Shown: one piece after another, positions 11,076-58,433 of the stretch | How positions within the stretch are numbered: position 1 is the first letter of the stretch | Layout: the number at the start of each line of letters is the position of its first letter | Origin: Bacillota bacterium | GTDB lineage: Bacteria; Bacillota; Clostridia; Oscillospirales; Oscillospiraceae | DNA length: 64,000 nucleotides | Assembly: GCA_021768085.1 (NCBI GenBank) | Contig: JAETOJ010000003.1 | Span: 1 to 64,000 of the forward strand | Direction: 5' to 3' | The notes under the pieces: model-generated | The model's input: only the letters and a program-made list of their open reading frames with translations | Told to the model about the DNA's origin: nothing | Database searches by the model: none | Translations under genes and position numbers: made by a program

Positions 11076-11114
11076 AAGAGAGAAAGGAATGGAGCGGAAT
11101 TTCTTCCGACGCCT

Positions 11115-51922: not shown

Positions 51923-52153
51923 TTGACAGCCCCGGCGGCTCTTTGTTAGAATTGAAACAGCGAATCCCCAAACCCACCCGGCCCGGCTACTCCCTTGGGC
52001 GCAAACCGCCCATAGCCTCGCCGAGGAGAAAAAAAGGAGGAAAATCCGCGAACCGGCGGTGCGGCAATGTGGAGACTTGCCGTAAGGTCCACGGGGTAAA
52101 CCCCCTGTGGGCGAGGGCGCGCTGCGGAGGCGGCGTGTCTACGGTTCACCGCT
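51923..52153 (+). promoter_or_regulatory. Promoter and structured leader of the MsmK-type gene
   Basis: TTGACA (51923-51928) and TAGAAT (51947-51952) are 18 bases apart. The leader of about 190 bases holds AAAAAAGGAGG (52030-52040) with no gene of useful length after it, a stem GGCAA/TTGCC (52063-52081), a hairpin CCACGGGG-TAAA-CCCC-GTGG (52089-52110) and CGGTTCACCGC just before the ATG, which can pair with either GAACCG or GCGGTG near 52050-52062. No ribosome site lies within 15 bases of the ATG. The leader may be regulatory. Confidence 0.5.
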
Positions 52154-53293
52154 ATGGCAACTTTGAGTTTGAGAGGCATCAAGAAGATCTACGACGGCGG
52201 CGTGACGGCTGTCCACGACTTCAATCTGGAGATCGCGGACAAAGAGTTCATCGTGCTGGTCGGCCCCTCCGGCTGCGGCAAGTCCACCACTCTGCGTATG
52301 GTGGCCGGCCTGGAGGAGATCAGCGAGGGTGAACTTTACATCGGCGACAAGCTCGTCAACAACGTGGAGCCCAAGGATCGCGACATCGCCATGGTGTTCC
52401 AGAGCTACGCTCTGTACCCCCACATGACGGTGTATGAGAACATGGCCTTCGCCCTGAAGCTGCGCAAGCTGCCCAAGGACGAGATCGACCGCCGTGTAAA
52501 GGAGGCGGCGGAGATCCTGGACATCACCCAGTACCTGGAGCGTAAGCCCAAGGCTCTGTCCGGCGGCCAGCGCCAGCGTGTGGCCATCGGCCGTGCCATC
52601 GTCCGTGAGCCGCAGGTCTTCCTGATGGACGAACCCCTGTCCAACCTGGACGCCAAGCTGCGTAACCAGATGCGTGCCGAGATCATCAAGCTGCGCCAGC
52701 GCATCGACACCACCTTCATCTACGTCACCCACGATCAGACCGAGGCTATGACCCTGGGCGACCGCATCGTCATCATGAAGGACGGCTTCATCCAGCAGAT
52801 CGGCACCCCGCAAGAGGTGTTCGACAACCCGGTGAACGTCTTTGTGGCCGGCTTTATCGGGATGCCCCAGATGAACTTCTTCAACGCCCGTCTGGTGAAG
52901 TCCGGCAGCGGCTACGCGGTGAAGGTGGCCGGCGCCACCATGGAGATCGCCGACAAGATCCAGAAGCAGCTGGCGGCCAAGAACGTCCCCGAGAAGGACA
53001 TCATTCTGGGCATCCGCCCCGTGCACGTGTCCTTCGCCGAGGGCTCCGCCGCCCACACCATCGCCGCCCGGGTGGACGTGTCCGAGATGATGGGCAGCGA
53101 GATCCATCTGCACGTCACCGCCAAGGAGGATAACGGCAGCGAGAAGGACGTGGTGCTGGTGGTTTCCACCACCGACCTGCCCGAGAGCTTCCGGGCCGGC
53201 ATCCCCTACGGCACCACCATCCACTTCACCTTCCCCGGCGAGCTGGTCCACCTGTTCGACAAGGAGACCGAGCGCAACCTGCTGGCCGACTAA
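52154..53293 (+). CDS. MsmK/UgpC-type sugar ABC transporter ATPase
   Basis: The 379-residue ATPase has Walker A GPSGCGKSTT, Q-loop VFQSYALYPHMT, signature LSGGQRQRVAIGRA, Walker B VFLMDEPLSNLDA, H-loop VTHDQTEAM and the C-terminal TOBE/MalK regulatory domain (ILGIRPVHVSF). No permease or binding protein lies beside it; such orphan MsmK proteins power several sugar importers. Its codons use CGT for Arg more often than neighbours do, a sign of high expression. Confidence 0.93.
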   Translation: MATLSLRGIKKIYDGGVTAVHDFNLEIADKEFIVLVGPSGCGKSTTLRMVAGLEEISEGELYIGDKLVNNVEPKDRDIAMVFQSYALYPHMTVYENMAFALKLRKLPKDEIDRRVKEAAEILDITQYLERKPKALSGGQRQRVAIGRAIVREPQVFLMDEPLSNLDAKLRNQMRAEIIKLRQRIDTTFIYVTHDQTEAMTLGDRIVIMKDGFIQQIGTPQEVFDNPVNVFVAGFIGMPQMNFFNARLVKSGSGYAVKVAGATMEIADKIQKQLAAKNVPEKDIILGIRPVHVSFAEGSAAHTIAARVDVSEMMGSEIHLHVTAKEDNGSEKDVVLVVSTTDLPESFRAGIPYGTTIHFTFPGELVHLFDKETERNLLAD

Positions 53294-57582: not shown

Positions 57583-57612
57583 TTGACTAACTCCCTCCCG
57601 GTGGGATACAAT
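57583..57612 (+). promoter_or_regulatory. Promoter of mntP
   Basis: TTGACT and TACAAT are 18 bases apart, just before the riboswitch. The 200 bases before it (57391-57582) hold no gene. Confidence 0.65.
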
Positions 57613-57618
57613 GCCGAT

Positions 57619-57824
57619 ACCGGTAAGGGAGTAGTCGGCGGCGTATGCCGCGGCCTGGTCAACATACTGGCGGCACAGCCGCCTGGTCAGGCATAAGGGG
57701 CCCCCGCAAAGCGCCCTTAAATGGGGCCCCCGCAAAAGCGCACTTCAGCTTTTGTGGGGATACGGAGCTTGCCCCGACGAGACGAGACTTACCCGCAGTG
57801 GGTGCGGGTGAAGTCTCTTTTTTT
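57619..57824 (+). ncRNA. yybP-ykoY manganese riboswitch with repeat insertion
   Basis: The RNA begins GGTAAGGGAGTAGTCGGCGG, with the GGGAGTAG typical of yybP-ykoY, has GTCAACATACTGG and CCTGGTC in the second leg, and ends GACGAGACGAGACTTACCC; GGTAAG (57622-57627) and CTTACC (57788-57793) form P1. The last P1 strand is shared with a terminator (GAGACTTACCCGCA, then TGCGGGTGAAGTCTC, TTTTTTT; 57784-57824). Metal binding would keep P1 and allow mntP expression. Between the legs lie one and a half copies of the GCCCTTCA-loop repeat (57695-57759). Confidence 0.85.
57728..57759 (+). repeat. GCCCTTCA-loop repeat copy inside the riboswitch
   Basis: CCCCGCAAAAGC (57728-57739), loop GCACTTCA, GCTTTTGTGGGG (57748-57759). 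A 5' half copy (GGGGCCCCCGCAAAGCGCCC) lies just before it at 57697-57716. Confidence 0.78.
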
Positions 57825-57872: not shown

Positions 57873-58433
57873 ATGGGATTTGCTGAACTGTTCGTACTGG
57901 CGGTGGGCCTGTCCATGGACGCCTTCGCGGTGGCCGTGTGCAAGGGGCTGTCCATCCGGGAGCTGAAGCTCCGCCACGCGGCCATCGTGGGGGCGTGGTT
58001 CGGGGCGTTCCAGGCACTGATGCCCGCGGTGGGCTGGCTGCTGGGCTCTGCCTTCGCGGATCGGATCGCGGCCATTGATCACTGGATCGCCTTTGTCCTG
58101 CTGGCCCTCATCGGCGGCAACATGATCCGGGAGGCCCTGTCCTCCGAGGAGGAGGAGCGGGATCCCTCCCTGGCCCCCATGGCCATGCTGCTGCTGGCGG
58201 TGGCCACCTCCATCGACGCGCTGGCGGTGGGCATCACTTTCGCCTTCCTTCGGGTGGACATCCTCCCTGCCGTCACCCTCATCGGGGCGTGCACCTTCCT
58301 CCTGTCCGCCGCAGGGGTGAAGATCGGCAACCTGTTCGGCGCGCGGTACAAGTCCCGGGCGGAGCTGGCCGGCGGCGTGGTGCTGGTGCTCATCGGGCTG
58401 AAGATTCTGCTGGAACATCTGAATGTCCTTTAA
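57873..58433 (+). CDS. mntP: Manganese exporter MntP
   Basis: The 186-residue membrane protein has six helices in two repeats, each with the metal-site Asp: VGLSMDAFAVAVCKG (Asp16) and ATSIDALAVGITFA. It pumps Mn2+ out of the cell. It follows the manganese riboswitch, so it should be made when manganese is high. GAAGGG lies about 10 bases before the ATG. Confidence 0.94.
   Translation: MGFAELFVLAVGLSMDAFAVAVCKGLSIRELKLRHAAIVGAWFGAFQALMPAVGWLLGSAFADRIAAIDHWIAFVLLALIGGNMIREALSSEEEERDPSLAPMAMLLLAVATSIDALAVGITFAFLRVDILPAVTLIGACTFLLSAAGVKIGNLFGARYKSRAELAGGVVLVLIGLKILLEHLNVL

Follow-up and report, generated by a model that had tools for sequence, protein, structure and literature searches.

Organization of the mntP leader

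The window analysed here, a stretch of 64,000 nucleotides from a Bacillota bacterium, carries at 57622–57824 a yybP-ykoY-type Mn2+ riboswitch with its terminator, which lies in the leader of mntP (57873–58433), a gene for a putative manganese efflux pump (PF02659, Pfam E 7.2e-54); the leader features described below and the gene are on the + strand. A promoter-like site (57583–57612), recognized from motif positions, consists of TTGACT (57583–57588), an 18-nt spacer, and TACAAT (57607–57612), and these motifs suggest where transcription of the leader would start. The 5' strand of the switch helix P1.1, GGTAAG (57622–57627), can form all six pairs with the 3' strand CTTACC (57788–57793). L1, one of the two docking loops (GGGAGTAG, 57627–57634), was located by its motif and the Rfam match, and is followed by the predicted hairpins P2 (57638–57651, with the strands 57638–57642 and 57647–57651) and P3 (57653–57692); the latter contains the Mn2+-sensing loop L3 (TCAACATACTG, 57659–57669), which is also found in relatives, and CAACATACTGG is located at 57660–57670. 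Thus, P1 and the remaining core motifs, which the earlier note on this DNA had described as intact, were all found. Between P3 and the closing strand GACGAGA (57781–57787), which together with the P1.1 3' strand occupies 57781–57793, an insert of 88 nt (57693–57780) takes the position of P4. The intrinsic terminator, GAGACTTACCCGCA..GTCTC-TTTTTTT (57784–57824), has 57788–57793 in common with P1.1.

Assignment to the yybP-ykoY class

According to the available excerpts of two papers, Mn2+ docks L1 with L3, whereby P1.1 is stabilized and the terminator is prevented (PMC6754395, PMC11087558), an adenosine of L3 contacts the metal (PMC6754395), and the RNA forms a four-way junction with P1 stacked on P2 and P3 on P4 (PMC11087558, PMC6754395); this order of helices (PMC11087558) puts P4 after P3 and ahead of the closing strand. 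The window leader agrees with the yybP-ykoY riboswitch (RF00080), as described there, in having both L1 (GGGAGUAG) and L3 (CAACAUACU), including the metal-contacting adenosine, in the dual use of the P1.1 3' strand (57788–57793), which also belongs to the terminator and takes part in both predicted folds, and in the Mn2+ homeostasis gene encoding MntP downstream of the aptamer. It differs from the riboswitch of those excerpts in its score below the cut-off, in a P4 that consists of repeat sequence, and in having relatives mostly without room for P4.

RF00080 was the top Rfam match of the window leader (26.7 bits, E 1.2e-5), which did not reach the gathering score of 45, a database cut-off and not a structural feature. 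Among 18 loci, namely, that of the window and those of 17 relatives, five matched RF00080 at E <= 0.5 with 26.7–34.3 bits, three of the five being compact leaders that have only a short linker at the P4 site; 13 gave no match at this threshold, and none passed the cut-off. We considered and dropped the repeat as the cause of the low score; since the listed compact relatives (29.7–34.3 bits) also fall below the cut-off, the low score is a property of the lineage rather than of the insert. A search of the whole own genome yielded no clear second RF00080 copy, the two matches given scoring 14.6 and 8.4 bits, and the window's own copy was missed by it too. Further Rfam matches in the leader, to the HDV ribozyme, mir-975, guanidine-III, and U6, were regarded as chance (E 1.8–9.3). 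Elsewhere in the window, a malK-I RNA was detected at 51972–52159 (123.8 bits).

A dispersed repeat within the aptamer

The insert originates from a dispersed hairpin repeat. In the own genome, the 17-base repeat pattern had 23 matches with up to two mismatches, versus three for the reversed pattern, and 17 clean copies outside the riboswitch (73–112 nt) were used to build a repeat profile. These copies begin with GGGGC, continue with a first hairpin (CCCCGCAAAGCC / GGCTTTGTGGGG), AGAGGAG, and a second hairpin with or without an inner hairpin, and end with CGACG(A). Against the profile, the window leader gave a main match with E 8.8e-10 and a partial one with E 0.057, the best of 200 shuffled leaders reaching 3.4. 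The partial copy (57697–57722) comprises the leading GGGGC and the 5' arm of the first hairpin; the second copy (57723–57780) has the complete first hairpin (57728–57739 / 57748–57759), the 3' arm of the second hairpin, TTGCCCC (57769–57775), without its 5' arm, and the 3' end GACGA (57776–57780). The aptamer's own closing GACGAGA starts only at 57781. The earlier proposal of a repeat lying within a Mn2+ riboswitch is therefore borne out, the repeat-derived insert being situated between P3 and the closing strand, that is, in the aptamer; its edges, previously given as 57695–57759, had to be corrected to 57693–57780.

The closest relative, G028 (locus L027 on a syntenic contig), has the 7-nt linker CTTTCAC where the window has the 88-nt insert, with MntP being 97% identical and the flanking aligned blocks 95.8% identical. 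Within the window, GGGGCCCCCGCAAA occurred seven times with up to two mismatches (six exact), compared with 2.2 expected, and no shuffle out of 100 reached seven. The other exact copies (10634, 11039, 11249, and, on the minus strand, 40606) sit in blocks alignable with G028, 10634 at a block edge, so that, of the exact window copies, only that in the riboswitch departs from G028. At the copies common to both genomes at 11098 and 40560, G028 has an additional 38 and 27 nt, respectively, which resemble the inner hairpin and are missing in the window.

Across all fetched loci, a candidate second hairpin was present in 125 of the 132 distinct copies, of types including GGCACAG/TTGTGCC, GGCGCAA/TTGCGCC, and GGAAGGA/TTCTTCC. 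Seven or eight of its eight pairs were formed in 68/125 copies, in comparison with 142/660 when the 5' arm was taken from another copy (35/660 had no candidate). For the first hairpin, covariation was not demonstrable (114/132 copies with 7–8 of 8 pairs versus 565/660 dealt combinations), because most copies came from a pattern that fixes one arm. A repeat 20-mer was found in at least 110 stretches, and among the 80 matches listed, 37 were titled Oscillospiraceae. Terminal inverted repeats, a trait of MITEs, were not seen by eye in the 17 own-genome copies, whose ends (GGGGCCCCCGC / YCGACGA) are not inverted copies of each other; the linker, inspected for a target-site duplication, was altered in all 10 enlarged leaders described below. 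REP and REPIN elements are marked by a RAYT-type (Y1_Tnp) transposase in the genome. A single Y1_Tnp match was reported in the own genome (L071:1501–1773); it has an in-frame stop, is separated by about 1 kb from the nearby repeat copy, and is at most a candidate RAYT. No transposase was found tied to the repeat, and a literature search with 12-base stretches of the repeat gave, among the matches listed, none on bacterial repeats.

Rfam searches over 17 own-genome loci with other repeat copies detected only tRNAs and a tmRNA and no further leader RNA. Copies occupy spacers within a tRNA cluster and also adjoin a tmRNA gene (window 10634, 11039, and 11249; L008). In L109, L139, and L144, copies stand immediately 5' of short genes that by eye resemble phage structural genes. 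A near-identical copy resides in a block shared by L102, L104, L116, L118, L120, L122, and L148, the records being titled Christensenella, Mediterraneibacter, Traorella, Clostridium clostridioforme, Fournierella, Blautia, and Lachnoclostridium; in two of these loci, examined for ORFs, the neighbouring genes by eye resemble those of a mobilizable element.

Compact and enlarged mntP leaders in the genus

Among the 42 genomes of the genus, 41 had mntP (no match in G002), and as the match in G009 was cut by a contig end, 40 leaders were read. A riboswitch was present in 33 of them; the other seven (L050, L040, L041, L042, L044, L064, and L065) had no GGGAGTA within 460 nt upstream, the last 260 nt also being checked by eye. 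One genome, G005, lacks it despite a very close tree neighbour, G027. In 23 of the 33 riboswitches, hereafter designated compact, only 6–8 nt separate P3 from the closing strand, leaving no room for a P4 hairpin (the linkers of G063 and G022 were read by eye). Among the literature matches listed, no description of a yybP-ykoY riboswitch without P4 was found. The remaining 10 are enlarged at the P4 site: G000 (the genome of the window), G016, G017, G018, G023, G029, G032, G033, G062, and G064.

The repeat profile matched eight of the 10 enlarged leaders at E <= 2.1e-8, whereas E was no lower than 0.45 for the 23 compact leaders and no lower than 3.4 for 200 shuffles. The leader of G017 matched with E 0.039, and that of G016, in which a stretch of 34 nt resembles a remnant, had no profile match. 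Thus, the comparison with relatives did not reveal a normal variable stem of this region, none of the compact leaders being repeat-like. All enlarged leaders belong to genomes carrying the repeat family: the core motif was present in 18 of the 33 riboswitch genomes, including the 10 enlarged ones, and absent from 15, none enlarged (Fisher p 0.0005, with kinship ignored). Related variants occur in three of the 15 motif-less genomes (G020, G060, and G035), and counting them gives 10/21 versus 0/12 enlarged. Over the 40 mntP loci (122 kb), eight repeat matches exceeded 20 bits, each in an enlarged leader and all in the mRNA sense.

Switch parts and predicted folds

L1, L3, and the terminator are kept in all 10 enlarged leaders, and all six P1.1 pairs can form in these as well as in 21 of the 23 compact ones (five pairs in G020 and G036). 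The L3 variant CACACTG occurs in one enlarged and six compact leaders; the terminator of compact G020, missed by the search pattern, is visible by eye. The second pair of P1.1 is A-T in 30 of the riboswitches; the window and the compact leaders of G028 and G022 have G-C. Because these two compact leaders share it, this two-sided change to G-C arose before the insert or independently of it and gives no sign of selection after the insertion.

For the window aptamer, the predicted pairing was 0.97 for P1.1 and 0.97 (outer) and 0.81 (inner) for P3, the insert bases having a predicted mean pairing of 0.58 among themselves and 0.04 with the aptamer. Within the insert, GGGGC (57697–57701) of the partial copy is predicted to pair with GCCCC (57771–57775) of the second copy at 0.88–0.91 without the terminator and 0.82–0.85 with it, so that two broken copies would make one closed arm (57697–57775), a predicted P4 that is built by the insert and would complete the four-way junction. 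Of the two outcomes considered earlier, a lengthened stem or altered folding, the milder one thus fits the predictions better than misfolding does, in the form of an arm added at the P4 position. Through the repeat end GACGA, the native GAC is also preceded by another, and hence the helix above L1 could form in either of two registers, of which the one with 57778–57780 appears in the minimum-energy fold. When the window insert was shuffled, only 3/100 (P1.1) and 4/100 (P3) shuffles matched the observed values.

The other enlarged leaders gave mixed predictions. P1.1 was high in G016 (0.95) and G023 (0.94), nearly absent in G017 (0.00) and G029 (0.02), and 0.23–0.46 in G064, G062, G018, G033, and G032; P3 was close to 0 in G029, and in G033 it did not reach 0.5. 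In the shuffle test, only G018 (6/100) and G032 (3/100) stood out, both for P1.1, most others being no better than their shuffles; the P3 measure of this test failed for G023 and G062 by taking the wrong partner. Such low values do not show failure, since the folding calculation ignores L1–L3 docking and the metal, and several compact leaders are likewise low. By eye, the minimum-energy folds have a single closed arm only in the window and G016, the other eight having adjacent hairpins or, in the case of G029, a complex fold. We therefore dropped the suppositions that every insert restores the four-way junction and that inserts are generally selected for self-containment, the latter being supported by the shuffles for the window and not for most others.

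Number of insertions and their probable effect on the switch

In a 40-row tree of MntP and its neighbour, an ABC ATPase, all 10 enlarged leaders fall in one 18-species clade, most genomes of which carry the repeat (support 93/74; clade not starred). The enlarged state changes seven times on the tree (6–8 in bootstraps), five changes being forced by starred, well-supported branches, and it is weakly clustered, as shuffled labels averaged 9.1 changes and 25/500 had as few as seven. The compact linker CTTTYAYGAYGAGAC occurs in five of the seven compact leaders in the clade, in five of the 16 riboswitches outside, and in none of the 10 enlarged leaders. This distribution, together with the tree changes and the differing second-hairpin types of the species' inserts (GGAGCAA, GGCACAG, GGGGCAG, and GGCGCG), favours several insertions over one. 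That the clade had just one, old insertion and later regained compact leaders through interspecies recombination seems unlikely, though this view has some evidence in its favour. The left junction GGC-ATAA-GGG is common to the window, G029, and G032, and the 44 nt from the promoter flank to L1 are identical in the window and G028, although their aptamer cores (58 columns) differ by a 2-nt gap and at 15 of the 56 aligned bases; in similarity to the window core, G028 ranks 24th among 32. Leader segments may have been exchanged between species, or the window's core may evolve fast, and such replacement could obscure the insertion count. However, most left junctions differ, as do the second-hairpin types, and the window core without the insert bases most resembles compact G022 (0.88) and G063 (0.86), ahead of enlarged G029 (0.85).

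We consider it probable that the leader is a working switch in which the repeat is mainly tolerated, at a repeatedly used insertion site in the P4 position, with a fourth arm added. The leader would be a transcriptional Mn2+ ON-switch of the yybP-ykoY type, and most of the genus would use a three-helix aptamer (P1, P2, and P3) with a 6–8-nt linker instead of the canonical P4. In the 18-species clade, repeat copies would have arrived several times in the linker between P3 and the closing strand, the window being one case, in which the remnants of two copies presumably fold as one arm (GGGGC/GCCCC around a hairpin) and leave L1, L3, P1.1, and the terminator free. The insert would create a four-helix junction, and the roughly 81 nt of extra RNA that follow the Mn2+-sensing loop and precede the switch strand would delay the switch decision. 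The position, repeat identity, and recurrence of the insert and the presence of the switch parts are observed, the leader folds are predicted, and from these we infer Mn2+ binding, tolerance of the insert, and the delay. This reading is weakened by the RF00080 score below the cut-off, the weak P1.1 and P3 predictions in several enlarged leaders, and the weakly clustered label.

The arm might instead have been selected, P4-less lineages regaining P4 from repeats because Mn2+ docking becomes better, or the response is shifted, when P4 stacks on P3 or when transcription takes longer. The seven changes (five forced) at one site, the confinement of repeat matches above 20 bits to these leaders within the 122 kb, the single closed arm in the window and G016, and a window insert that surpasses 97/100 (P1.1) and 96/100 (P3) shuffles agree with such selection; nevertheless, it appears rather improbable, as eight of the 10 enlarged leaders lack one closed arm, besides the window only G018 and G032 stand out from the shuffles, for P1.1, and compact leaders persist among close relatives of enlarged ones. 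A bolder proposal is that the repeat family supplies replacement helices, the P4-less riboswitch of one clade having repeatedly captured copies, of which the window's two were remodelled into a closed P4 that restored the four-way junction, slowed the decision, and changed the Mn2+ sensitivity; we regard it as distinctly improbable. That the insertion damages the riboswitch, with the leader decaying towards constant ON or OFF expression, would suit the seven of 40 leaders that have no riboswitch and the weak predicted P1.1 in seven of the 10 enlarged ones, but is very improbable in view of the parts kept in all 10 (P1.1, L1, L3, and the terminator) and the P1.1 prediction of 0.97 in the window. 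Tolerance of the repeat in a working switch hence remains our preferred reading.

Relation to known systems

The repeat is short, dispersed, and strongly folded like MITE, REP, and BIME elements, as characterized in the available excerpts of PMC3049150 and PMC10969869, and like REPINs, and differs from them all in that neither a terminal inverted repeat nor a transposase tied to it was seen. Among the literature matches listed and the excerpts available, no report of a repeat inside an aptamer was found, the closest precedent being a BOX repeat between two T-box riboswitches in the pneumococcal trp operon (PMC3049150; PMC10969869). There, too, according to the excerpt of PMC3049150, a small structured repeat lies in a leader whose riboswitches seem still functional; the BOX element, however, stands between two aptamers, whereas the present repeat lies within one and recurs in several species. 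Thus, the insertion place inside one aptamer and its recurrence appear to be new, the riboswitch class being already known. The leaders of near relatives provide naturally occurring variants of one riboswitch that either have or lack an extra arm, so that effects of junction architecture and of RNA length ahead of the switch strand on metal sensing are testable with native sequences, and they suggest a route by which small repeats enlarge a regulatory RNA without breaking it.

Finally, RF02617 (SSRC10, 'Streptococcus sRNA 10') matched the compact leader L056:1346–1457 over its full length, including the terminator (44.1 bits). This family is filed as an sRNA gene and, in contrast to the compact leader, the window's enlarged leader gave no match to it. 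Because compact mntP leaders are matched full length, RF02617 may in fact represent the leader of a Mn2+ riboswitch that lacks P4. The compact leader L038:1328–1445 was also matched over its full length (43.6 bits), the scores of both being below the cut-off of 56.
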